Source of the DNA: Arthrobacter sp. SLBN-122
GTDB taxonomy: Bacteria > Actinomycetota > Actinomycetes > Actinomycetales > Micrococcaceae
Assembly: GCF_006715165.1 (NCBI RefSeq)
Contig: NZ_VFMS01000001.1
Coordinates: 3,348,001 to 3,412,000 of the forward strand
DNA length: 64,000 bases
Direction: 5' to 3'
A model generated the notes under the pieces. The model saw nothing but the letters and a program-made list of their open reading frames with translations. It was not told where the DNA came from and searched no databases. The translations under genes and the position numbers were made by a program. Below, piece after piece: positions 9,663 to 21,124 of the stretch (its first letter is position 1; every line of letters starts with the position of its first letter).

Positions 9663-10481
9663 TTAGAGCCGGGCGATGATATCGGCGAGCAGCCTGGAGA
9701 TGCGCGGGCCCGCCGCGCGGCCGGATTCGATCACTTCCTGGTGGCTTAAGGGCTGTGGGCTGATGCCGGCGGCGAGGTTGGTGACCAGCGAAATACCAAA
9801 CACTTCCATGCCGGCGTGCCGCCCGGCGATGGCTTCCAGCGCCGTGGACATGCCGATGAGGTCGGCACCGATGCGCTTGGCGTACTGCACTTCGGCCGGG
9901 GTCTCGTAGTGCGGGCCGGGGAACTGGGCGTACACGCCCTCCGCCAGACTGGGGTCCACCTCGCGGGCCAGGCCGCGGATCCGGGGCGAGTACAGGTCTG
10001 TCAGGTCCACGAACGTGGCGCCCTCCAAAGGGGATGCCGCGGTGAGGTTGATGTGGTCCCTGATCAGTACCGGGGTGCCGGGGGCCCAGTCCTCGTTGAG
10101 TCCGCCGCAGCCGTTGGTGAGGACCAGGGTGCCGCACCCGGTGGCCGCCGCGGTCCGGATTCCGTGGACCACCGCCCGGACACCCCTGCCCTCGTAGTAG
10201 TGCGTGCGGGCGCCCAGCACCAGTGCCCGCTTTCCCGAGGGGGTGAGGATGGAGCGGATGGTGCCCACGTGGCCCTCCACGGCGGGGGCGTGGAAGCCGG
10301 GAACTTCTTCGGCGGACAGGGTGGCGGTGGTCTCGCCGATGAGGTCCGCGGCCTCGCCCCACCCGGAGCCGAGGACCAGGGCGGTGTCGTGCCGGTCCAC
10401 GCCTGTCTCTTCGGCGATGTAGTCCGCTGCGGCGCGGGCAGCGGCAAACGGGTCCGTGTTCAGGAAGTCTGTTGTACTCAC
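9663..10481 (-). CDS. punA: Purine nucleoside phosphorylase (trimeric type)
   Basis: The 272-residue protein belongs to the PNP/MTAP family. Motifs: LVLGSGWG (phosphate-binding loop), a GxRTHYYEG-like GARTHYYEG, LTNGCGGLN, and GPHYETPAEV followed by GMSTALEAIAGRHAGM and VTNLAAG. It splits purine (deoxy)nucleosides with phosphate to base and (deoxy)ribose 1-phosphate in the cytosol. The GTG start has no SD but has TAACTT exactly six bases upstream, which suggests a leaderless message. The phosphohexomutase follows 56 bases downstream with its own possible start signal, and lpdA is divergent 97 bases away. Confidence 0.95.
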   Translation of the reverse strand: MSTTDFLNTDPFAAARAAADYIAEETGVDRHDTALVLGSGWGEAADLIGETTATLSAEEVPGFHAPAVEGHVGTIRSILTPSGKRALVLGARTHYYEGRGVRAVVHGIRTAAATGCGTLVLTNGCGGLNEDWAPGTPVLIRDHINLTAASPLEGATFVDLTDLYSPRIRGLAREVDPSLAEGVYAQFPGPHYETPAEVQYAKRIGADLIGMSTALEAIAGRHAGMEVFGISLVTNLAAGISPQPLSHQEVIESGRAAGPRISRLLADIIARL

Positions 10482-10487
10482 CAGTAC

Positions 10488-10493
10488 AAGTTA
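10488..10493 (-). promoter_or_regulatory. -10 element of a probable leaderless promoter for punA
   Basis: TAACTT on the minus strand is followed by six bases and then the GTG start. No ribosome-binding site is present. Confidence 0.55.
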
Positions 10494-10578
10494 TCGTGCC
10501 GCCCGTGTTGCCCCCGTCACGGCTGGCCCGGGCAGGGCCCTGTTTTCTTGGTGGTCAGCGGCAAATGGGCGAGAATGG

Positions 10579-12000
10579 ATGACTGTGACTACGCATCCAG
10601 ATTTCAGTTCCCCCCGGATCGCAATCCTGGGAGGTGGCCCCGGCGGATACGAAGCCGCCATGGTGGCCGCCTCGCTCGGGGCGACGGTCACCATCATCGA
10701 ACGCGCGGGCCTGGGTGGATCGGCCGTGCTGACCGATGTGGTTCCCTCCAAGACCCTCATTGCCACGGCCGACCTGATGACCCGCGTGGCCGAGGCCGGA
10801 GAGCTGGGCGTGAAATTCGACGTCGATGGCGGCGACTTCGTGCCGGTGATGCGCGCCGACCTCAAGCACATCAACGACCGGCTCCTCAACCTGGCCCGCA
10901 ACCAGTCCCACGACATCCGCGACGGTCTGGAGAAGCTGGGCGTGCGGATCATTGCCGGTTCCGGCCGGCTCCTGGACAACCACACCATCGAGGTCCTGAC
11001 GGTGGACGGTACGGAGACTGTTGAAGCGGACACCATCCTGCTGGCCGTGGGCGCGCACCCCCGCGAGCTGGAGACGGCCCGCCCCGACGGCGAGCGGATC
11101 CTGAACTGGACCCAGATCTACAACCTGGACGAACTGCCCGAGGAACTTATCGTGGTGGGGTCCGGCGTCACTGGTGCGGAGTTCGCCTCCGCCTACAACG
11201 GCCTGGGTTCCAAGGTCACCCTGGTGTCCAGCCGCGACCGGGTGCTGCCCGGCTCCGACGTTGACGCCGCCGTCGTCCTGGAGGAAGTCTTCGAACGCCG
11301 CGGGGTCCGGGTCCTGTCCCGCTCCCGCGCCCAGACCGTGGAACGCACGGACGATGGCGTACTGGTAACGCTTTCCGACGGCTCCACGGTGACCGGCAGC
11401 CACTGCCTGCTCTGCCTCGGGTCCATCCCCAACACGGCAGGCCTGGGCCTCGAGGAGGCCGGCGTGGCCGTCAGCGAAAGCGGCCACATCAAGGTGGACG
11501 GTGTTTCCCGCACCACCGCCCCGAACATCTACGCCGCCGGTGACTGCACCGGCGTCCTGCCACTGGCCTCCGTGGCCGCCATGCAGGGCCGCATCGCCGT
11601 GGCGCACTTCATGGGCGATGTCGTCACCCCCCTCAAGCTCCACCAGGTGGCATCCAACATCTTCACCTCGCCCGAAATCGCGAACGTGGGCATCTCCGAA
11701 GCAGACATCGAGTCCGGCAAGTACCAGGCAGACGTCGTCAAGCTCTCCCTACGCAGCAACGCCCGCGCCAAGATGCGCAACGCCAAGGACGGGTTCGTCA
11801 AGATCTTCGCGCGCAAGGGCTCCGGCACGGTGATCGGCGGCGTGGTGGTGGGCCCCAACGCCTCCGAACTGATATTCCCGATCTCCATCGCGGTCAAGCA
11901 AAAGCTGCATGTGGACGACCTCGCCAGCACCTTCACGGTCTACCCGTCGCTGACCGGATCCATCTCCGAGGCCGCCCGCCGCCTGCACGTCCACATGTAG
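10579..12000 (+). CDS. lpdA: LpdA-type NAD(P)H dehydrogenase (quinone) flavoprotein
   Basis: The 473-residue protein has the full fold of the dihydrolipoamide dehydrogenase/mercuric reductase family: an FAD motif GGGPGGYEAA near residue 15, an NAD motif VVGSGVTGAEF near 195, the YAAGDCTG motif near 315, and a C-terminal dimerisation domain. The redox-active CxxxxC is absent: the helix reads AGLGGSAVLTDVVPSK. This loss is typical of M. tuberculosis LpdA (Rv3303c), which uses quinones and is not a lipoamide dehydrogenase. I assign that role by analogy. The ATG at 10579 is preceded by no clear SD; a GTG two codons later is an alternative. It is divergent from punA, the same neighbourhood as in mycobacteria. 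Confidence 0.88.
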   Translation: MTVTTHPDFSSPRIAILGGGPGGYEAAMVAASLGATVTIIERAGLGGSAVLTDVVPSKTLIATADLMTRVAEAGELGVKFDVDGGDFVPVMRADLKHINDRLLNLARNQSHDIRDGLEKLGVRIIAGSGRLLDNHTIEVLTVDGTETVEADTILLAVGAHPRELETARPDGERILNWTQIYNLDELPEELIVVGSGVTGAEFASAYNGLGSKVTLVSSRDRVLPGSDVDAAVVLEEVFERRGVRVLSRSRAQTVERTDDGVLVTLSDGSTVTGSHCLLCLGSIPNTAGLGLEEAGVAVSESGHIKVDGVSRTTAPNIYAAGDCTGVLPLASVAAMQGRIAVAHFMGDVVTPLKLHQVASNIFTSPEIANVGISEADIESGKYQADVVKLSLRSNARAKMRNAKDGFVKIFARKGSGTVIGGVVVGPNASELIFPISIAVKQKLHVDDLASTFTVYPSLTGSISEAARRLHVHM

Positions 12001-12054
12001 GGCACCCGCCCATGTAAGGGCCGAAGGGCCCGCATTCCACGGGCAACCCGTTGC

Positions 12055-12060
12055 TACACT
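12055..12060 (+). promoter_or_regulatory. -10 element of a probable leaderless promoter for the Lgt/radical SAM operon
   Basis: TACACT is followed by six bases and then the ATG at 12067, with no Shine-Dalgarno. No good -35 is visible. It would drive the five-gene operon to 15516. Confidence 0.55.
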
Positions 12061-12066
12061 CTGCTC

Positions 12067-12825
12067 ATGATCGGGCTTCCCTTCGCGGGAAACGGGCTGG
12101 TACATGCCGGCTTCGTCGGGCTGGGAATCCTCGCAGCCCTGCTGTTCTACGCTTACGAGAAGCGCCGCCGCGGGCTTGCCGATCCCCGGTTGTGGCCCAT
12201 TGCCGGTTTTGCCGTTGCTTTCGGCGCCATCGGTTCCCGGGTGCTTACCTGGGACATCTCCCGCCAGGTTTCACTGGCTGACTGGTGGGGCAATGGCGAC
12301 CGCAGCATCCTCGCCGGGCTGGTAGGAGCCTGGTTCGGCGTCCTCCTGGCCAAACGATTGACCGGTTACCGGCAGCCGACGGGTGACCTGCTGGCCCCGG
12401 CAGTAGCCCTGGCGCTCATCATCGGGCGCATCGGCTGCCTTCTAACAGAGCTCCCCGGAACGCCGACCGGGGGAGCCTGGGGAGTGTTCCTCACTCCGGC
12501 GCAGGCCGCGCTGACCGGGGCCCAGGCCGGGGTGGGACTTCATCCGTCGTTCGCCTACGAGATTGTCTTCCACCTCGCGGCCTTTGCCCTGATGTGGCGC
12601 TGCCGGGACCGCCTGCCCCACCCTGGCGACCTCTTTATCTGCTTCGTCAGCGCCTATGCCCTCTTCAGGTTCGTCGTCGAATTCGTCCGGGGCAACGAGG
12701 TGCTCTGGCTGGGGATGAGCCGGCCCCAATGGTTCCTGCTGGCGGTTTTGCCCCTCCTGGTATGGCGGGTCCGGCGTGTCTTCGGCCCATCACTCCGCCG
12801 TGAGATGGAAGGAACCGCAGCATGA
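12067..12825 (+). CDS. Diverged Lgt-like (prolipoprotein diacylglyceryl transferase family) membrane protein
   Basis: The 252-residue protein has about seven hydrophobic segments and an Lgt-family layout: GRIGCLLTELPG at about residue 120, corresponding to the Lgt signature GRIGNFxNxE; LHPSFAYE, corresponding to the conserved HPxQLYE; and FRFVVEFVRG, corresponding to the distal Arg/Glu-Phe-x-Arg motif. It differs from true Lgt at functional positions. The signature Asn is Cys, and the essential His of the HGGLxG motif is replaced (SILAGLVG). Housekeeping Lgt is therefore probably encoded elsewhere, and this paralogue may move a lipid to or from another acceptor. It overlaps the next gene by ATGA, and a Tes-like radical SAM protein is in the same operon, which points to lipid chemistry. 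The exact substrate is unknown. Confidence 0.8.
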   Translation: MIGLPFAGNGLVHAGFVGLGILAALLFYAYEKRRRGLADPRLWPIAGFAVAFGAIGSRVLTWDISRQVSLADWWGNGDRSILAGLVGAWFGVLLAKRLTGYRQPTGDLLAPAVALALIIGRIGCLLTELPGTPTGGAWGVFLTPAQAALTGAQAGVGLHPSFAYEIVFHLAAFALMWRCRDRLPHPGDLFICFVSAYALFRFVVEFVRGNEVLWLGMSRPQWFLLAVLPLLVWRVRRVFGPSLRREMEGTAA

Positions 12826-13172
12826 GTGAGGACCCGGCTGACTTTCCCAGTATCCCGCCGTCCCGGGGAGAAGAACCGCGCCCTGAACCAGGACTCGGTC
12901 TCATAGTGCTCGGAATCGTGTTAGGGGCTCCGGCCCTTTATGCCCTTTATTTCGGGACAACAAGTGGCATCGCTCCGAACGAGGGATACAGGACCTTCCT
13001 TACCGGGCCCAGAACGTTCATCCCAATCGCCGCGTATTTGGTGGTGGCCGTTGTGCTGACGGTCCGGCCACGCACATCCGGGTTGGGTGCGGGCCTGCTG
13101 ATCGGGCTGGGGATCTTCACACTGCTCGGCGGCGGACTCTGCGTCGCCTACCTGGCCCAGGCCCGGGCCTGA
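12822..13172 (+). CDS. Small three-helix membrane protein, paralogue A
   Basis: The 116-residue protein has a charged, Pro-rich N-terminus of about 27 residues and then three hydrophobic helices (about 28-48, 63-82, 89-112). The last contains GLLIGLGIFTLLGGG. It shares this C-terminal stretch and the overall layout with the protein encoded immediately downstream, so the two arose by tandem duplication. The start overlaps the stop of the Lgt-like gene (ATGA), implying coupled translation. I recognise no known family. Location suggests a partner subunit of the Lgt-like or radical SAM protein. Confidence 0.75.
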   Translation: MSEDPADFPSIPPSRGEEPRPEPGLGLIVLGIVLGAPALYALYFGTTSGIAPNEGYRTFLTGPRTFIPIAAYLVVAVVLTVRPRTSGLGAGLLIGLGIFTLLGGGLCVAYLAQARA

Positions 13173-13173
13173 C

Positions 13174-13521
13174 ATGAACGACGACCAGCCGGTTCCGCCA
13201 CCAAGGGAGCAGGGGAGCGGGCAGAAGCGGGAAAACCGGGGTGGCTATCTGGGGTCCGGAGCCGTTTTCGGCGCTCTGGCCCTGTACATCCTCTACCTTG
13301 GGGCAGCAGTCGGCATCGGAGCACCGAATGCATGGGCAACCAGCATCTTTGCCGGGCCGGCCGCCTTCGTCCCGATCGCCGTCTATCTGGGGCTGGCCAT
13401 TGTTCTTGCCGTTAATCCCCGCACGTCACGCACCGGGGCGGGCTTACTGATTGGGCTCGGCGTTTTCACGTTGCTCGGCGGGGGACTTTGCGTGGGTGCC
13501 CTTACACAGGCCGGAATTTGA
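13174..13521 (+). CDS. Small three-helix membrane protein, paralogue B
   Basis: The 115-residue protein has a basic and Pro/Gln-rich N-terminus, then three hydrophobic helices at about 28-48, 60-80 and 88-112, ending with GLLIGLGVFTLLGGG. This is nearly identical to the end of the preceding protein, while the N-termini differ. It starts one base after that gene's stop. Retention of both copies suggests either hetero-oligomerisation or separate partners. No function can be assigned from the sequence. Confidence 0.75.
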   Translation: MNDDQPVPPPREQGSGQKRENRGGYLGSGAVFGALALYILYLGAAVGIGAPNAWATSIFAGPAAFVPIAVYLGLAIVLAVNPRTSRTGAGLLIGLGVFTLLGGGLCVGALTQAGI

Positions 13522-13537
13522 AGAAGGGTGCAGAATC

Positions 13538-15124
13538 ATGAGGACTCAACAGTTGCCAGGGCCAGGCCAGCCGCTGCGCGGTGACAGGATCCATCGTTAT
13601 GTGACCGCTTTCTGCCCCCAATGCCACGAAACCAACCCTCCACTCAGCGAGGTCCGGCGGCTGTCCGGGGCGTTGCTTGTCCGTGAAGGTCGTGTGTGGC
13701 TCGAACGCGGCTGCCCGGACCATGGCCTGGTCCGCACGCTGTACGACGAGTCGGCGGAAATCCTGCGCTACCTGGAGAAGTGGCAGGCGCCCACGAAGCA
13801 GCACATCCCTGACCAGACCGACAATTTCCGCGCTGTCCCCGAGGCCTATGCCTTCGGGCTTCCGGCCATGCAGACGCAACACACCTGCATCCTCCTCCAG
13901 GACATCATCGAGCACTGCAACCTGCGCTGCCCCACCTGCTTTACGGCGTCGGGCCCGCAACTGCAGGGAGTCGCACCGCTTCAGGAGGTGCTCGACAACG
14001 TGGACACCCGCTTGGCCCGGGAGAACAACCGGCTGGATGTGCTGATGCTCTCCGGCGGTGAACCTACGCTGTACCCCTATCTTGCCGAACTGCTGGACGA
14101 ACTCGTTTCCCGGCCGATCGTCCGGATCATGGTGAACAGCAATGGCATGCTGATTGCCACTGATGACGACCTCCTCGCCTTGCTGGCACGGCACAGGGAC
14201 AGGGTGGAGGTGTACCTCCAATACGACGGTCCCTCCAGGCAATCGTCGATTTACCACCGCGGCGGAGATTTGACCCGCTTCAAAGATGCGGCAATCTCCC
14301 GCTTGTCGGAAGCGGGCATCTTCACCACGCTGACCATGACGGCATCCCTTGGCGTGAACGACGGCGAAGTGGGCGCCGTGGTGATGCGTGCCCTGGAGAC
14401 TCCCTTTATTGGCGGGGTGGCGCTGCAGCCCGTCTTCGGTTCAGGACGCGGACACGGCATCGACCCCTTGGACCGGCTCACCCATACCGGCGTCCTGGAG
14501 AGGTTGGCTGAGCAGACCAACGGTGTGGTGTCCTGGCACGACCTGACGGCATTGCCCTGCTCCCACCCGCACTGCGCCTCAGTGGGCTATATGCTGAAGG
14601 ACGACGCGGGAGTCTGGAGGTCCCTGACATCATTGATCGGTCACGATCAGCTGCTCACCTGGCTGGAGCTCAACCCTGACAGCCTTGCGAACCGGATCGC
14701 TGACAGCTCCATCCCGCTGGAGCTGCGGAACCTGATGAAAACCTCACTGCTGGACCTGCTGAGCGAGCAGGCGTCGCTGTCCCACCCACGCACCATGGAC
14801 CTCTGGAAGAACATCTGCTCCCAGTGCGACTTGGGCATCGGCACGCTGACCACCTTGGCGGCAGGCAAGCTCCCTGGCCAGCAACAACGCCTGCGCAGGC
14901 TCCTCGCGGAACGGGTCACCCGGATCATGGTCAAACCCTTCATGGACATCTCCACGATGATCGAGGAGCGGCTCACCCAATGCTGCGTCCACGTAGGAAC
15001 CAAGAGCGACGCCGGCGCCCACCAGTGCGCTCCGTTCTGCGCAGTGCAGGCGTGGCCTTCGCTGGCGAGGCAGCGCATGAGCACGGCCACGCGTGTCCGG
15101 CCGCTCCCGGTGCGTCAGGTTTAG
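13538..15124 (+). CDS. Radical SAM protein resembling tetraether lipid synthase (Tes)
   Basis: The 528-residue protein carries a radical SAM CX3CX2C cluster motif at C127, C131, C134 (CNLRCPTC) and the SAM-contacting LSGGEPTLYP. Upstream is a rubredoxin-like set, CPQC (C26, C29) with C59 in RGCPDHG. Downstream are more cysteines: PCSHPHC, ICSQC, TQCC and HQCAPFC. An N-terminal rubredoxin-like site plus radical SAM and extra C-terminal clusters is the plan of archaeal Tes (MJ0619/MA_1486), which joins isoprenoid chain ends. A role in unusual carbon-carbon coupling or modification of membrane lipids is therefore inferred. The SD AAGAAGGG lies ahead of ATG. It is the core of an operon with an Lgt-like protein and three small membrane proteins. 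Other radical SAM chemistry cannot be excluded. Confidence 0.82.
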   Translation: MRTQQLPGPGQPLRGDRIHRYVTAFCPQCHETNPPLSEVRRLSGALLVREGRVWLERGCPDHGLVRTLYDESAEILRYLEKWQAPTKQHIPDQTDNFRAVPEAYAFGLPAMQTQHTCILLQDIIEHCNLRCPTCFTASGPQLQGVAPLQEVLDNVDTRLARENNRLDVLMLSGGEPTLYPYLAELLDELVSRPIVRIMVNSNGMLIATDDDLLALLARHRDRVEVYLQYDGPSRQSSIYHRGGDLTRFKDAAISRLSEAGIFTTLTMTASLGVNDGEVGAVVMRALETPFIGGVALQPVFGSGRGHGIDPLDRLTHTGVLERLAEQTNGVVSWHDLTALPCSHPHCASVGYMLKDDAGVWRSLTSLIGHDQLLTWLELNPDSLANRIADSSIPLELRNLMKTSLLDLLSEQASLSHPRTMDLWKNICSQCDLGIGTLTTLAAGKLPGQQQRLRRLLAERVTRIMVKPFMDISTMIEERLTQCCVHVGTKSDAGAHQCAPFCAVQAWPSLARQRMSTATRVRPLPVRQV

Positions 15125-15132
15125 GAGGAATG

Positions 15133-15516
15133 ATGGACCCAGCGTCCAATGCCAGGCGGATCGCCGCCGGGCCGCTGCCCTCACAGCTGCTGGGCGGCAG
15201 GCACGGCACCACTCCTGAAGCACCCACGGCCCCACCGGGTTCCGTCCCTGGCAGCACCCAAGAAGCGCCTTTTGACCCCCTGCGCCTGTGCATCTTCGCC
15301 ACAATTGCCCTGCTGGGGTGGCTCGCGGGCCCCTTGGCGCTGTCCGTCTTTGCAGCCATAGGGTTCATCGGATATTGGAAGGCGCGGCGACGTGGACTGA
15401 CGAAGTCCAAGTGCTACCTGCGCGATACGCGGCTGGTGCTGGCTTATCTGGCTGTCCTCCTGGCCTCCGGCGTCTACGGAATCTACCTGCTCACGGGACG
15501 TATGTTCGGGGTGTGA
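15133..15516 (+). CDS. Small membrane protein at end of the Lgt/radical SAM operon
   Basis: The 127-residue protein has a polar N-terminus of about 45 residues and then hydrophobic segments at about 52-80 and 100-122, with a basic loop KARRRGLTKSK between them. The Shine-Dalgarno TAGGAGGA overlaps the stop of the radical SAM gene. Two tandem ATGs follow (15130 and 15133), and the second has the better spacing. Tight coupling argues that it works with the radical SAM protein. I recognise no family and give no function. The operon seems to end here; only a weak GC-rich hairpin follows. Confidence 0.7.
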   Translation: MDPASNARRIAAGPLPSQLLGGRHGTTPEAPTAPPGSVPGSTQEAPFDPLRLCIFATIALLGWLAGPLALSVFAAIGFIGYWKARRRGLTKSKCYLRDTRLVLAYLAVLLASGVYGIYLLTGRMFGV

Positions 15517-15571
15517 ACAGGCCCTGCGGGCGGGGTGTCCTGGGGGCTGGACCGCCGCCCGGGCACCTGCA

Positions 15572-15648
15572 TAGACTCGAACGAGGCAGGGCCGGGAATT
15601 TCCAACGAAGTTCCCGGCCGTACCTTTATGACCGGTCAAAGCGAGGAG
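15572..15648 (+). promoter_or_regulatory. Promoter -10 and leader hairpin before a small gene
   Basis: TAGACT (15572-15577) is a likely -10. The resulting leader would carry a perfect 9-bp stem, GGCCGGGAA/TTCCCGGCC (15590-15598 with 15611-15619, 12-base loop), and then GAGGAG (15643-15648) before the ATG at 15655. The hairpin could tune expression or stability. Confidence 0.4.
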
Positions 15649-15654
15649 AAGCCC

Positions 15655-15903
15655 ATGGAATTGCAGGATGTGAAATGGAACGAGCAGGCGCGTGAAAAGA
15701 TCCTGCTGGACGCCGACCGGGCCCTGCAGGAGGCCGTCCGCGAAGCGGCGTCGTCGCTGTCCGGATCGGACAAGGACCAGGTGTATAAATTCCTGTTTGA
15801 AAAGTTGAAGGACCAGTTCGTGGACTTCCAGCCGGGTCCGGACCTGACCCACTACGCCGAGGCCGTGGCCAACGGGGAGCTTGATCCGGCACGTACGGCC
15901 TAG
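15655..15903 (+). CDS. Small soluble helical protein, function unknown
   Basis: An 82-residue, charged, probably all-helical cytosolic protein, with no cysteine and no membrane segment. The start ATG has a strong GAGGAG six bases upstream; an ATG nine codons earlier (15628) lacks one. It stands alone between the Lgt/radical SAM operon and the convergent nitrate operon. I do not recognise a family. Heptad-like hydrophobic spacing in the first 50 residues would allow a small helical bundle or dimer. Confidence 0.65.
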   Translation: MELQDVKWNEQAREKILLDADRALQEAVREAASSLSGSDKDQVYKFLFEKLKDQFVDFQPGPDLTHYAEAVANGELDPARTA

Positions 15904-15943
15904 AAAGCGGCGGCGGGTCCTGCCGATCCTGTGCAGGGCCGGA

Positions 15944-17506
15944 TCAGGCTGCCGGCACGGCCTGGAAATGCCGTTCAATCAAGCCCTTGATGTCCTCGTG
16001 GCAGCCGCCGCATCCGGTGCCGGCGCGCGTGGACTTGGAGACGTCCGCCACCGTGGAACACCCTTCCTCCACCGCTCCCTGGATGGCAGCCCCGCTGACA
16101 CCGGCGCACCGGCATACGGTCACGGCCGGGTCTGCTGCGGCGGTGGCGGGCAGCTGGTCCGGCCCGTCCAGGCGGAGGAGGAGCGAGCGGTCGGCAGGCA
16201 GTTCGGCGCCCCGTTCAAAGAGTCCTACCAGTTCTGAGGCGGTGCGGGGCATCCCCACCGCCACCAGGCCTTCGAGCACTCCGCCGCGCGTGGTCATCTT
16301 GACGTACCGGCCATGCTCGGGGTCAGCCCACTGGGCCACCTGCAGGCGGGCCCTGCCGTTGGCTGCCCCGGCCGTGAGCGCTTCCTCATCCCAGGGATCG
16401 GCGGCATTGTTCCCGGCCACGGCCATGTTCATGCCACGGGCCTTCAGGACCACGACGCCGGGCTGTTCAGGCGGCAGGGCGGGCAGCAGTTCCGCCTCCT
16501 CCGCCTCGCCGGCGGCCAGCAGCGTGAGATAGCCCGCCAGCCACTCAGCCTGCCGCCAGCCCGGGCCCACCAGCCCGGACGGCCCGGTGGAGTTCCGGCA
16601 CGCGCCGCAGCCGGGATCCGGGCAGCGGACCTCGGCGCAGTCACCGATGGCAAAGATGTGCGGTTCGTGGTGCGCCCGCAGGCGGTGGTCCACCAGGATC
16701 CCGGTCCCGGTGGAAAGCCCGCAGCCATCGGCCAGCTCGGTGCGGGGACGCACCCCGCACGAGATGACCAGGAGTTCGCCGTCAATCGCCTGCCCGTCGT
16801 CCAGCAGCAAAGCGGAGAAACCGCCGTCGGGAGCGTTGTGCTCAACGCCGGTGGAGCGGGCGTTCCCCGCCACGCGGACACCGCAGCGGCGGAGTCCGGC
16901 AGCCAGGACGCCTCCGCCGCCGCGGTCGATGCTCCGGCCCAGGGGGTGCGGCCCGTTATGGACCACGGTGACGGTGGCGCCTTCCTCCGCGGCGGCCAGC
17001 GCCGTTTCCAGGCCCAGGACGCCGCCGCCCAGGACCACCACCCGCTTGCCGCCGTCCACCGCCTGCCGCAGGACAGCGGCGTCGCGGAGGTCCCGCAGCG
17101 CTGTGACACCCGCGGGAAGCACGGGCGAGGCCGGATCCGGGTTGATTCCGGTCAGGTTCGGGATGACGGGCCGGGACCCGGTGGCAAACACCAGCCGGTC
17201 GTAGTGCACGGGTGCGCCGCCGGCGAGCAGGACCTGCTGCCGGGCCCTGTCCACGCGCTTGACCCGCACACCCAGCCGGACCTCCACGCCCTCCGCCGCC
17301 AGTTCGGCGGCATCGGCAAGGGCCAGTGCGTCAGCGGTGGTCCGGCCAACGCCGAGGTCGGCCACGAGGACGCGGTTGTAGGCGGCCTCGGTTTCCTCGC
17401 CGAGCACAGTGAGCTTGACCTGCCCTGCACGCACGGCAGGGAGGAGCTCGTCCACCAGCCTGGCAGCCACGGGGCCGAATCCCACGATGACAATCTGCTC
17501 GCTCAT
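15944..17506 (-). CDS. NADH-dependent electron-transfer flavoprotein of assimilatory nitrate reductase (NasB/NirB-like)
   Basis: The 520-residue protein has an FAD motif IVGFGPVAARL at the N-terminus, an NAD motif VVLGGGVLGLET near the middle, an AIGDCAE FAD contact, and a C-terminal BFD-type [2Fe-2S] domain with C465, C467, C499 and C502 (CRC, CGGC). It would carry electrons from NADH to the nitrate reductase encoded just upstream, whose own C-terminal BFD domain is missing. The start overlaps the nitrate reductase stop (ATGA), so the two are coupled. An unusual Cys-rich segment, CPDPGCGAC, follows the AIGDCAE motif. It lacks the siroheme domain, so it is not a nitrite reductase. Confidence 0.88.
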   Translation of the reverse strand: MSEQIVIVGFGPVAARLVDELLPAVRAGQVKLTVLGEETEAAYNRVLVADLGVGRTTADALALADAAELAAEGVEVRLGVRVKRVDRARQQVLLAGGAPVHYDRLVFATGSRPVIPNLTGINPDPASPVLPAGVTALRDLRDAAVLRQAVDGGKRVVVLGGGVLGLETALAAAEEGATVTVVHNGPHPLGRSIDRGGGGVLAAGLRRCGVRVAGNARSTGVEHNAPDGGFSALLLDDGQAIDGELLVISCGVRPRTELADGCGLSTGTGILVDHRLRAHHEPHIFAIGDCAEVRCPDPGCGACRNSTGPSGLVGPGWRQAEWLAGYLTLLAAGEAEEAELLPALPPEQPGVVVLKARGMNMAVAGNNAADPWDEEALTAGAANGRARLQVAQWADPEHGRYVKMTTRGGVLEGLVAVGMPRTASELVGLFERGAELPADRSLLLRLDGPDQLPATAAADPAVTVCRCAGVSGAAIQGAVEEGCSTVADVSKSTRAGTGCGGCHEDIKGLIERHFQAVPAA

Positions 17507-19710
17507 GAGGCCTCCGTCGTTTGCAGCGTGCGGGCGGAATCGGGGGTGGCCACGGGCCGGACCCACACGGTGTTGAATTTGAATTCGGGCATCCCGGAGA
17601 TGGGATCGGTGGCGGCTTCGGTGAGGCGGTTTGCGCTTTCCGCGCCAGGGAAGTGGAAGGGCAGGAAGACCGTCTCGGGACGGATGGCAGTGCTGAGCTC
17701 CGCCCGGCAGACCACCTCACCGCGCCCGTTTGCCACGGAGACCGGGGATCCTGCGGCGATGCCCATGGCGTCTGCGGCAGAGGGATGGATCTGCACTCTG
17801 GCTTCAGGCTGGGCGGCGATGAGTTCGGTCACCCGCCGGGTCTGGGCGCCGGACTGGTAATGCTCCAGGAGCCGGCCGGTGATGAGGATCATGGCTTTGC
17901 CGGCGGGATCCACTGACGCGGCGGCGTCGTTGGCGGAAGTGCGACGCCGGCGTGGCACCACCGGGACCATCAGCGCCTTCCCGTCGGGGTGCGCGAAGCC
18001 ATCCGCGAACAGCCGGGGCGTTCCAGAGCTGCCGGCCGGGTAGGGCCAGTAGGCGGCCTCGCCGCGGTCCAGCATGGCGTAGTCGATGCCCGAGTAGTCG
18101 GCCAGGCCCCCTGCGGAGGCACGGCGCAGTTCCTCGAAAACTGTTTCCGGATCCTCGCTGTAGGTGGACGGGGCGTCAAGCCGCGCGGCGAGGCGGGCCA
18201 TGATCCACAGCTCGCTGCGGGCGCCGGCGGGAGGGGAGATGGCGCGGCGGCGGCGCAGGACCCGTCCCTCCAGGTTGGTCAAGGTCCCGTCCTCTTCCGC
18301 CCACTGCAGCACGGGGAGGATCAGGTCCGCCTCGGCGGCGGTTTCGGACATGAAGAAGTCGCAGACCACCAGGAAGTCCAGGCTCCGCAACCCCTCGATC
18401 ACGGCGTTCGCGTCCGGTGCTGCCACCGCAATATTGGAGGCGTGCACGAAAAGGCACCGGACGCCGTCGGGCTTTCCCAATGACTTCAGCAGCTGTACGG
18501 CGGGCAGGCCCGGTCCGGGGATGGTCTCCTCAGGAACGCCCCAGACCGCGGCGACGTGCGCGCGGGCGGCGGGATCGGTGATCTTGCGGTAGCCCGGGAG
18601 TTGGTCCGCCTTCTGGCCGTGCTCGCGGCCGCCCTGGCCGTTGCCCTGGCCGGTGAGGGTTCCGTACCCGCTGCGGGCCGCGCCGGGAAGGCCCAGGAGG
18701 AGGCTGAGGTTGATGGCGGCGGTTGCGGTGTCGGTGCCGTCCACATGCTGTTCCACACCGCGCCCGGTGAGGATGTAGCTCCCGCCTTCCCGTGCCCCCG
18801 CGGCGAGCATGCGGGCGGTCTGGCGGATCAGGTCCGCGGGGACGCCGGTCAACGACTGGACGCGTTCGGGCCAGAAGGCGTTGACGCTGCGGACTACGGC
18901 GCTGTAGCCCGAGGTGCGCTCCTGGACATAGGCGGTGTCCACCAGGTTCTCGTGGATGACCACGTGGGACAGGCCCAGCAGCAGGGTGAGGTCGGTGCCC
19001 GGCAGGGGCTGGAGGTGGAGGCCTCCGCCGTCGGCCGTGAAAGCTGCCGTAGCCGAACGGCGGGGGTCAACCACCACCAGTCCGCTTGCGTCGCGGGCTC
19101 CGCGCAGGTGCTGCACGAACGGAGGCATGGTCTCGGCAACGTTCGAACCGAGCATCAGGATGGTGCTGGCGGTGTCCAGGGCTTCGAGCGGGAACGGCAG
19201 GCCACGGTCCACGCCGAAAGCACGCATTCCTGCGGCGGCGGCGGAGGACATGCAGAACCGGCCGTTGTAGTCGATGCGGGAGGTGCCGAGGGCCAGGCGG
19301 GCAAACTTGCCCAGCATGTAGGCCTTCTCATTGGTGAGGCCACCGCCACCGAAAACGCCGACGGCGTCCGCGCCGTAGCGTGCGCGGGCGTCCTTCACGG
19401 CCTGCGCGGCGAGGTCCAGGGCACGGTCCCAGCTGATGGGCCGGTGTACGCCGTCGGCACCTTTCAGGAGCGGTTCGGTGATCCGGCCGGCGTGGTTCAG
19501 GAGGGCGGGGGAGGTCCAGCCTTTGCGGCACAGGCCGCCGCGGTTGGTGGGGAAGTCCCGGCCTGCAACCTCCAGTGCAGGCGCGGAGGGAAGTGCAGGC
19601 GCGGAGCCTGGCCCCGGCTGGGCAGCCGGGGCCAGGTCCGCAGGGGACGTGAGCGTCATGGCGCACTGCAGGGCGCAGTAAGGGCAGTGCGTGTCGGCGC
19701 TTGTGGTCAT
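17503..19710 (-). CDS. Assimilatory nitrate reductase catalytic subunit (Mo-bis-MGD, [4Fe-4S])
   Basis: The 735-residue protein is a cytosolic molybdopterin oxidoreductase of the NarB/NasA type, reducing nitrate to nitrite. The [4Fe-4S] ligands are C9, C12, C16 and C61; a Pro/Ala-rich insert of about 25 residues separates the third and fourth, which is longer than usual. Later motifs include GRFCMSSAAAAGMRAFG and a C-terminal molybdopterin dinucleotide-binding domain. No twin-arginine signal and no C-terminal [2Fe-2S] domain are present; the latter is supplied by the downstream flavoprotein. It begins one base after narK stops and overlaps the next gene by four bases, making a narK/reductase/flavoprotein operon under the narK promoter. 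Nitrite produced feeds NirBD. Confidence 0.95.
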   Translation of the reverse strand: MTTSADTHCPYCALQCAMTLTSPADLAPAAQPGPGSAPALPSAPALEVAGRDFPTNRGGLCRKGWTSPALLNHAGRITEPLLKGADGVHRPISWDRALDLAAQAVKDARARYGADAVGVFGGGGLTNEKAYMLGKFARLALGTSRIDYNGRFCMSSAAAAGMRAFGVDRGLPFPLEALDTASTILMLGSNVAETMPPFVQHLRGARDASGLVVVDPRRSATAAFTADGGGLHLQPLPGTDLTLLLGLSHVVIHENLVDTAYVQERTSGYSAVVRSVNAFWPERVQSLTGVPADLIRQTARMLAAGAREGGSYILTGRGVEQHVDGTDTATAAINLSLLLGLPGAARSGYGTLTGQGNGQGGREHGQKADQLPGYRKITDPAARAHVAAVWGVPEETIPGPGLPAVQLLKSLGKPDGVRCLFVHASNIAVAAPDANAVIEGLRSLDFLVVCDFFMSETAAEADLILPVLQWAEEDGTLTNLEGRVLRRRRAISPPAGARSELWIMARLAARLDAPSTYSEDPETVFEELRRASAGGLADYSGIDYAMLDRGEAAYWPYPAGSSGTPRLFADGFAHPDGKALMVPVVPRRRRTSANDAAASVDPAGKAMILITGRLLEHYQSGAQTRRVTELIAAQPEARVQIHPSAADAMGIAAGSPVSVANGRGEVVCRAELSTAIRPETVFLPFHFPGAESANRLTEAATDPISGMPEFKFNTVWVRPVATPDSARTLQTTEAS

Positions 19711-19711
19711 G

Positions 19712-21124
19712 TTAGACGTGTCCCATCGCGTTCCGGCCGGCGTTGCGGATGTAGCAGGTCCAGCAGACCAGCAGCATCAGCACGTAGGCGCCAACGAATC
19801 CGTAGAATGCGGGGGTGTAGGAGCCGCTGGCGGTGCTGGAGGCGTTCAGGACCTGGGGAATGACGAAGCCGCCGTACGCGCCGATTGCGGAGATCAGCCC
19901 GAGGGCCGAGGACGCCAGGCGCTGGGTGGCCACCGAGCTGGCGCCCCTGCGTGCGGCCCGGCTGGAGGTGGCGAAGATGACCGGAATCATCCGGTACGTG
20001 GCGCCGTTTCCAAAGCCGCTGGCGGTGAACAGCATCAGGAAGAGGACCAGGAAGAGCCAGAAGTTCTTCAACGGCAGGGTCCAGATCATGGTGAGCGTGA
20101 TGACGGCCATGGAAGCGAAGGCAGCCACGGTCATCCGGGCCCCGCCCATCCGGTCCGCCATGCGTCCGCCGTAGGGGCGGGCCAGCGAGCCCACCAGAGG
20201 GCCCAGGAACGCAAGGGACAGGGCTACGGTGCCTACTCCGATGGAGGAGAACGCGGGGAAGTAGTCCTTGATCAGCTTGGGGAATACACCGGCAAAGCCG
20301 ATGAAGGAGCCGAAAGTACCGATGTACAGCAGCGCCATGATCCACAGGTGCGGTTCCTTGAGTGCCGCGACCGAGCCGGCCACGTCACCCTTGGCGCTGG
20401 TGAGGTTGTTCATGTATTTGAAGGCGCCGAACGCCGCGAGAAGGATGAAGGGAACCCACATCCAGCCGGCCATGGGCAGGTTGACGGTGCCGGCGGCCAG
20501 CAGGGTGATCACGATGGGAACGGCAAGCTGTGCGACGGCGGCGCCCAGGTTTCCGCCGGCGGCGTTCAGGCCCAGCGCCCAGCCCTTTTCGCGGGCCGGG
20601 TAGAAGAAGGTGATGTTCGCCATGGAGCTGGCGAAGTTGCCGCCGCCGAAGCCGGCGAGGGCGGCCACGAGCAGCATGACGCCGAACGGAGTCTCCGGGT
20701 TGGAGACACACAGGGCCAGGCCGGTGGAGGGGATCAGCAGCAGCAGGGCGGACACGATGGTCCAGTTGCGGCCGCCGAAGCGGGGCACCATGAAGGTGTA
20801 CGGGATGCGAAGGGTGGCGCCCACGAGGCTTGGCATCGAGATGAGCCAGAAGATTTCCGAGGTGGAGAAGGTGAAGCCGGCGGCGGGAAGCTGGACCACC
20901 ACGATGGACCACAGTTGCCAGACGACAAAGCCGAGGAATTCGGCGAAGATGGACCAGTTCAGGTTGCGGCGGGCGATGGTGCGGCCAGCGGTTTCCCATT
21001 GTTCCTTGTTCTCGGCATCCCAGTTGGCGATCCAGCGGCCGGGGCGGAACTCAAGGGCAAGGGTGTCTGTGGTGCGGGTAGAGCCGGGCTGTACGCCGGC
21101 ATCGACAGTGCGGTCAACAGTCAC
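19712..21124 (-). CDS. narK: Nitrate/nitrite MFS transporter
   Basis: The 470-residue, 12-helix major facilitator has the nitrate-porter signatures: GGGNFASSMANITFF followed by the GLNAAGGNLGAA loop, and a second AIGAYGGFVIPQ-like segment. It imports nitrate (and possibly exports nitrite) across the plasma membrane. The GTG start has an excellent SD, GAAGGAGGTAACCC. It is the first gene of the nitrate operon, and a GlnR-like box with a -10 element lies 48 bases upstream. The N-terminal cytosolic segment of about 60 residues is long but normal for actinobacterial NarK. Confidence 0.95.
   Translation of the reverse strand: MTVDRTVDAGVQPGSTRTTDTLALEFRPGRWIANWDAENKEQWETAGRTIARRNLNWSIFAEFLGFVVWQLWSIVVVQLPAAGFTFSTSEIFWLISMPSLVGATLRIPYTFMVPRFGGRNWTIVSALLLLIPSTGLALCVSNPETPFGVMLLVAALAGFGGGNFASSMANITFFYPAREKGWALGLNAAGGNLGAAVAQLAVPIVITLLAAGTVNLPMAGWMWVPFILLAAFGAFKYMNNLTSAKGDVAGSVAALKEPHLWIMALLYIGTFGSFIGFAGVFPKLIKDYFPAFSSIGVGTVALSLAFLGPLVGSLARPYGGRMADRMGGARMTVAAFASMAVITLTMIWTLPLKNFWLFLVLFLMLFTASGFGNGATYRMIPVIFATSSRAARRGASSVATQRLASSALGLISAIGAYGGFVIPQVLNASSTASGSYTPAFYGFVGAYVLMLLVCWTCYIRNAGRNAMGHV

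Follow-up and report, generated by a model that had tools for sequence, protein, structure and literature searches.

A conserved pairing of an Lgt-like membrane protein gene with a Tes-fold radical SAM gene points to a possible bacterial membrane-lipid modification

Why should a relative of the prolipoprotein diacylglyceryl transferase Lgt be encoded beside a radical S-adenosylmethionine (SAM) enzyme that resembles the archaeal tetraether lipid synthase Tes? The question is raised by a five-gene module of Arthrobacter sp. SLBN-122, whose 4.47 Mb genome is a single contig. The window that we analysed is a 64,000-nucleotide stretch of it (C1:3348001-3412000), and the positions given here are counted within that window. 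The first gene (12067..12825, + strand) encodes a 252-amino-acid (aa) Lgt-like integral membrane protein of family PF01790, and the fourth (13538..15124, +) a 528-aa Tes-fold radical SAM protein, rSAM below, with a rubredoxin-type CxxC..CxxH site, a CX3CX2C site and a C-terminal cysteine-rich domain. Between them lie two genes for small three-helix membrane proteins, copy a (12822..13172, +; 116 aa), with a near-invariant cysteine ending helix 3, and its paralogue copy b (13174..13521, +; 115 aa). The last gene (15130..15516, +) encodes a small membrane protein of 127-128 aa with two invariant cysteines and the motifs DPLRLC and SxC.

We looked for the two enzyme genes in other genomes. Six of the 296 genomes in a phylum sample had members of the close rSAM clade, and exactly these six had members of the close Lgt-like clade; nine other genomes had distant rSAM relatives only, and eight others had distant Lgt matches only and no rSAM match. 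No Lgt-like gene was found in eight stretches around distant rSAM genes (L063-L070; L numbers denote loci), which came from seven genomes, with a second gene of G253, and two of which lie on short contigs; nor was one found in short pieces from the remaining two of the nine genomes. Among 149 genomes of the Micrococcaceae, 13 carried rSAM and the same 13 carried the Lgt-like gene, always within ~1.1 kb. rSAM was present in 64 of 248 Mycobacterium genomes and the Lgt-like gene in 67, with all 64 shared (64/64), on the same contig and 103-867 bases apart; in the three genomes with the Lgt-like gene and no rSAM, two copies were close to contig ends and one was a remnant. A larger Mycobacterium sample (at least 98% complete), searched for rSAM only, had it in 98 of 387 species genomes, about a quarter. 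The Lgt-like gene was also found in 12 of 13 verrucomicrobial loci, within 0.8 kb in ten and ~4.8 kb away in two (L033, L034), and it overlaps the rSAM gene on plasmid pPP1 of Persicobacter psychrovividus (Bacteroidota). Of the 37 loci from genome contigs, 33 had it; the exceptions are two loci cut by contig ends (L009, L038) and two partial second rSAM copies (L024, L025). The linkage on which the original prediction relied is therefore strongly conserved, and it extends beyond actinobacteria to Verrucomicrobiota and Persicobacter.

Partial second rSAM copies stand beside a full copy in Arthrobacter rhizosphaerae, Arthrobacter sp. ISL-5 and Arthrobacter sp. UNC362MFTsu5.1 (L024, L025, L032), which suggests duplication and decay. 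Clustering of open reading frames (ORFs) revealed no gene family besides the pair common to more than 8 of 26 actinobacterial stretches, and no other conserved neighbour in the 13 verrucomicrobial loci. A conserved third partner in Verrucomicrobiota was rejected, as the other ORF clusters read as shadow frames of the pair or common to three loci only.

Could the Lgt-like protein be a second prolipoprotein transferase of low activity, whose adjacency to rSAM is meaningless? Of the two PF01790 proteins in the host genome, one is encoded elsewhere, scores 212.8 bits and was taken as the canonical Lgt; the other is that of the module, at 87.4 bits. The latter matches PF01790 and the fold of Escherichia coli Lgt (5azb, via VIA re-alignment and profile search); Foldseek alone gave no PDB match for its model at E <= 0.001, and phmmer of the genome's other Lgt gave no PDB match. 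Its TIGR00544 (Lgt equivalog) score of 45.5 bits is below the cut-off of 118.9. R143 and R239 of E. coli Lgt, which contact phosphatidylglycerol, correspond to R121 (in 39/40 rows of the Lgt-like clade) and R201 (40/40); the rows of this alignment and of that of rSAM were mostly gathered by sequence search, with gene neighbours seen for a minority. The Y26 position is occupied by H13 (His in 32/32 actinobacterial rows, Tyr in 8/8 verrucomicrobial rows) and the N146 position by C124 (Cys in 40/40). A second, weak Lgt would fit with Mycobacterium smegmatis MSMEG_5408, which has the same Y26H/N146C pattern and whose Lgt activity is presumed to be low (PMC13251419; papers cited by PMC number are drawn on here in part). 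It would also fit with six genomes of one actinobacterial family (L079, L082-L086) whose sole PF01790 protein has GRxGC and then a Cys pair. Since a cysteine at the N146 position is thus found in presumably working Lgts, C124 alone does not exclude Lgt activity, and we dropped the argument for its loss from that residue, H103 of Lgt also being known to vary (PMC13251419). Against a meaningless adjacency, however, stands the pairing in 64/64 Mycobacterium and 13/13 Micrococcaceae rSAM carriers, as well as in Verrucomicrobiota and Persicobacter, in varied surroundings; only 3 of the 67 Mycobacterium carriers of the Lgt-like gene lack rSAM, and these are the contig-end and remnant cases above. 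Furthermore, PF01790 proteins are present in all 21 genomes compared, and the 14 of these that carry rSAM all have another member that scores higher than the Lgt-like one. Given the tight pairing, we rejected a plain second Lgt as a sufficient explanation and consider it very improbable.

Next to this protein, rSAM shows the rubredoxin-like site and extra cysteines that had been noted at first sight of the sequence: C26xxC29...C59xxH62 and C127xxxC131xxC134, plus nine further cysteines (117, 341, 346, 427, 430, 482, 483, 497 and 501). The rubredoxin-type residues C26, C29, C59 and H62 and the radical SAM residues C127, C131 and C134 are each kept in 69/69 aligned rows, from which L061 was left out because its reading frame has stops. 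By sequence, the only informative PDB match was 7tol (8e-30), and the predicted fold matches the Tes structures 7TOL/7TOM along the whole chain. In the C-terminal cluster domain, C346, C482, C483 and C501 align with C338, C455, C456 and C470 of MJ0619. Several database entries name such proteins 7,8-dihydro-6-hydroxymethylpterin dimethyltransferase, and the Pfam HMPTM zinc ribbon domain agrees with that name, which we take to go back to MJ0619. The pterin methylase annotation of MJ0619 was, however, judged incorrect from its structure (PMC9433317), and it is hard to see why a pterin enzyme should accompany an Lgt-like membrane protein, so we give this assignment next to no credence.

Phospholipid is what the enzymes of both core families work on, with archaetidylglycerol among the lipids bound by Tes (PMC9433317) and phosphatidylglycerol bound by Lgt (PMC4728403). 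As the enzymes travel together, one common lipid substrate would be simplest. We propose that rSAM alters lipid tails and that the Lgt-like enzyme handles the diacylglyceryl end, with chain coupling as the likeliest single reaction; we hold this tentatively, at slightly less than an even chance. The pair would then form a stand-alone mobile module for the two-step modification of a membrane lipid of the phosphatidylglycerol type. In the first, the cytoplasmic rSAM would take lipid tails into a hydrophobic pocket, and a 5'-deoxyadenosyl radical would remove a hydrogen from an unactivated tail carbon. This carbon would be held on the C-terminal iron-sulfur cluster, where the new bond would be made, most likely a carbon-carbon bond to a second tail. 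In the second step, the Lgt-like protein would bind the same lipid class at the outer face via its two conserved arginines and pass the modified lipid's diacylglyceryl part from the glycerol-phosphate headgroup to an acceptor, probably other than ordinary prolipoproteins since the genome's other Lgt already serves those.

Several observations weigh against this proposal. rSAM scored 140.3 bits against NF045702 (Tes equivalog), far under the cut-off of 450, and three Lgt-linked relatives (L019, L030, L060) scored 142-154 bits. The N-terminal [4Fe-4S] cysteines of Tes (C73, C77, C80) are missing from the actinobacterial and verrucomicrobial rows, while the motif is present in five Lgt-free relatives and in the Lgt-linked Persicobacter rSAM. 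The Met439 position of MJ0619 is Lys466 here (Lys in 65/65 rows of two clades) and the Tyr459 position is Val486, Val being nearly invariant; complete conservation of both residues was stated for 1000 archaeal homologues, and the Tes mutant M439A is still active. In the Lgt-like protein, His and Cys replace Y26 and N146, which are essential in E. coli Lgt (PMC13251419). Two distant Tes-like rSAM genes without Lgt, on a Mycolicibacterium vanbaalenii plasmid (L136) and a haloarchaeal plasmid (L137), each immediately precede a gene for a methyltransferase, which leaves room for other chemistry in the rSAM family. Well-studied mycobacteria are not known for membrane-spanning lipids. Because of its score and the missing cluster cysteines, Met439 and Tyr459, rSAM is not a Tes orthologue, although the original prediction was right about its sequence, its fold and most of its cysteine plan. 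It follows that chain-end coupling, the example first offered, is one possibility and not an established function; what stands of the suggested lipid system is the Tes-like rSAM and its conserved linkage to the Lgt-like gene.

Two side observations concern relatives of rSAM. Six verrucomicrobial rSAMs (L026, L027, L030, L033, L038, L039) have a cysteine-rich stretch of the CCxGGxCC type near the site of the Tes N-terminal cluster, which could be a replacement cluster site. The M. vanbaalenii plasmid gene is also near genes for CcdA and a disulfide oxidoreductase; with their methyltransferase neighbours, it and the haloarchaeal gene show this rSAM class in another kind of pairing.

Might rSAM instead perform another radical reaction on lipid tails, such as desaturation, methyl transfer or thiolation, with no coupling of chains? 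Its best-scoring curated family is TrsS (NF045646), at 174.3 bits, above the Tes score, both being under their cut-offs (490 for TrsS). In the Tes reaction, too, a carbon-sulfur intermediate forms on one of the enzyme's clusters (PMC9433317), and the replaced Met439 and Tyr459 as well as the two relatives next to methyltransferase genes are in keeping with such chemistry. We found no in-frame UGA (selenocysteine) or other internal stop within 13538-15124, though not every TrsS member need be a selenoprotein. On the other hand, no methyl or sulfur donor protein was seen travelling with the pair, as the ORF clustering showed no further family in more than 8 of the 26 actinobacterial stretches and no other conserved one in the verrucomicrobial loci. 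We regard this alternative as unlikely, if one to be taken seriously.

The three small membrane proteins were originally counted as part of the system. Copies a and b are indeed paralogous (53-54% identity), each with three hydrophobic segments by hydropathy. The single Cys of the three-helix family is kept in 44/46 aligned members, and both cysteines of the two-Cys family, to which the last protein belongs, in 28/28. Of 39 actinobacterial loci, 35 hold the three-helix family and 33 the two-Cys family; the set includes L113 (a repeat of the L005 genome) and L032 (the second, partial locus of the L013 genome), and some of its loci are cut by contig ends. On our reading of hydropathy and charge, the cysteines of the two-Cys family would be cytosolic and that of the three-helix family would be at the outer side. 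Neither family turned up when the 13 verrucomicrobial loci and the one of Persicobacter were searched, so the small proteins look accessory and fall outside the two-gene core; for the same reason we dropped the idea that they are a universal substrate. In actinobacteria they may be accessory factors, with the two-Cys protein docking or reducing rSAM and the three-helix protein serving as a carrier or acceptor.

Their near-invariant cysteines (28/28, 28/28 and 44/46) and their presence in most actinobacterial loci also raise the alternative that rSAM and the Lgt-like protein act on these neighbours, as a peptide maturase with lipidation, rather than on free lipid. Lgt normally forms a thioether on a Cys, and the next neighbours of rSAM in sequence and fold include radical SAM peptide maturases, SkfB for example. 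Yet neither family accompanies the pair in Verrucomicrobiota or Persicobacter, and the three-helix proteins (Cys contexts GGGLC, GPC) mostly do not have the small -1 residue that belongs to the lipobox consensus. In addition, the fold match to Tes takes in the whole length of that lipid-binding enzyme, whereas the maturase match covers the core only. We therefore doubt that protein modification is the main role and think it improbable, though well short of negligible.

If the pair forms one pathway, did it arise once? In an rSAM tree of 26 rows, 17 rows assigned to the Lgt-linked type, drawn from three phyla (the neighbour was seen for 15 and two were placed by sequence), split from nine without a known Lgt neighbour with support 91/89, and the actinobacterial and verrucomicrobial rows alone had support 100/97. 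In an Lgt tree of 29 rows, 24 assigned to the rSAM-linked type (the neighbour was seen for 16 and eight were placed by sequence) split from five others with support 97/96. Both trees are compatible with the coupling having arisen once and the N-terminal cluster having been lost later, bearing in mind that the root is not known, that some branches are long and that long-branch attraction may act between the rSAM clades of actinobacteria and Verrucomicrobiota. The module occupies a 3.9-kb segment (12001..15943, strand-neutral) that also holds an 82-aa downstream ORF (15655-15903). Among six congeneric genomes without the module, its flanking genes lie side by side in two (L119, L120) and are separated by ~1.4 kb of other DNA in L117; in the other three the second flank is outside the fetched stretch. 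The surroundings of the pair differ between genera. Mycobacterium branderi plasmid pJCM12687 carries the module, annotated as Lgt-family, two hypothetical proteins and radical SAM; on a Nonomuraea plasmid I the Lgt-like gene adjoins rSAM, and an M. avium plasmid record holds a related rSAM. A phage origin was rejected, with no match in 50,697 phage records. By these comparisons the module appears to be a transferable, accessory element that moves horizontally. On the Persicobacter plasmid, a 1809-aa ketosynthase-like ORF (L134:11578-17007) lies ~2.2 kb from the pair; its start reads like that of a polyunsaturated fatty acid synthase.

Are all five ORFs real genes, and are they transcribed together? 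The ratio of nonsynonymous to synonymous substitution rates (dN/dS) against six relatives was 0.05-0.07 for rSAM, 0.07-0.15 for the Lgt-like gene, 0.21-0.44 for the three-helix proteins and 0.08-0.36 for the last small protein, where for the duplicated small genes the best match in a relative may be the other copy. Values well below 1 for each indicate real genes, with the strongest constraint on the two enzymes. Pfam LGT, Radical_SAM and Zn_ribbon_HMPTM were above curated cut-offs in the module proteins. Among named organisms, Arthrobacter and Pseudarthrobacter come closest, and rSAM is 98% identical in Arthrobacter sp. Soil764. The overlapping or near-touching gene ends described at the outset were borne out: the Lgt-like gene overlaps copy a by 4 bases, and the following gaps are 1 base (to copy b), 16 bases (to rSAM) and 5 or 8 bases, depending on whether the last gene starts at the ATG at 15130 or 15133. 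No consensus promoter or terminator was found across 11900-16000 and no Rfam match across 10000-18000, so a single transcript is suggested by gene spacing. The 82-aa ORF is 96% identical in L003 and 86% in L010 and had no family match above cut-off. A nitrate/nitrite assimilation cluster flanks the module (15944-21124, - strand), with an FAD reductase, a molybdopterin oxidoreductase and a NarK-like transporter as read from translations.

How much of this is new? Bacterial Tes homologues numbered 456 in one survey (PMC8941075), and their function was called unconfirmed in a later one (PMC11868695); they have been proposed, without confirmation, as makers of the branched tetraether lipids used as climate proxies (PMC8941075, PMC11868695). 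Homologues of GDGT-MAS were noted in bacteria not known for biphytanyl chains (PMC9433317). In the literature searched we did not find the Lgt-rSAM pairing; the portions of PMC8939145 and PMC7641849 that mention both terms concern other subjects. The conserved pairing points to a membrane-lipid modification that is, as far as we found, not described. It ties a Tes-fold clade to a membrane transferase as a concrete, easily deleted two-gene pathway for testing, and it suggests that the names prolipoprotein diacylglyceryl transferase and pterin dimethyltransferase may both be wrong for many of the proteins that bear them. A new lipid, if real, would be widespread and not exotic, as rSAM is carried by cultured soil Arthrobacter and by roughly one in four Mycobacterium species genomes. 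At its boldest, and with less likelihood than our general proposal, the Lgt-Tes pair would be a transferable pathway of two enzymes, ancient in origin, for a class of bacterial membrane lipid still to be described, tail-coupled (membrane-spanning) or a thioether derived from cluster sulfur, its diacylglyceryl end re-attached by the Lgt-like enzyme. It would act in mycobacteria, Arthrobacter and relatives, Verrucomicrobiota and Persicobacter, none of which is credited with such lipids; we think this full form rather unlikely.

Compared with known systems, the module protein shares with Lgt (PDB 5AZB/5AZC, PF01790) the fold and equivalents of R143, R239, Y235, E243 and R246; it differs in Y26 to His, H103 to Leu and N146 to Cys, in falling below the TIGR00544 cut-off and in being an extra paralogue beside a stronger-scoring Lgt. 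MSMEG_5408, the second Lgt homologue of M. smegmatis, has the Y26H and N146C found in 32/32 aligned actinobacterial rows (PMC13251419). rSAM shares with Tes/GDGT-MAS (MJ0619, PDB 7TOL/7TOM, NF045702) the whole-chain fold, the rubredoxin-type and radical SAM sites, the C-terminal-domain cysteines and ~22% identity, but it is below the equivalog cut-off, has lost the N-terminal [4Fe-4S] cysteines, has Lys for Met439 and Val for Tyr459, and has an Lgt-like gene partner. This partner, the score far under 490 bits and the lack of an in-frame UGA also set it apart from TrsS (NF045646). Finally, Mss, with the glycerol ester reductase Ger, is likewise a bacterial enzyme that joins lipid tails (PMC11868695, PMC13274423); we liken it to rSAM by description only, and it differs in that the available portions of these papers mention no Lgt partner.

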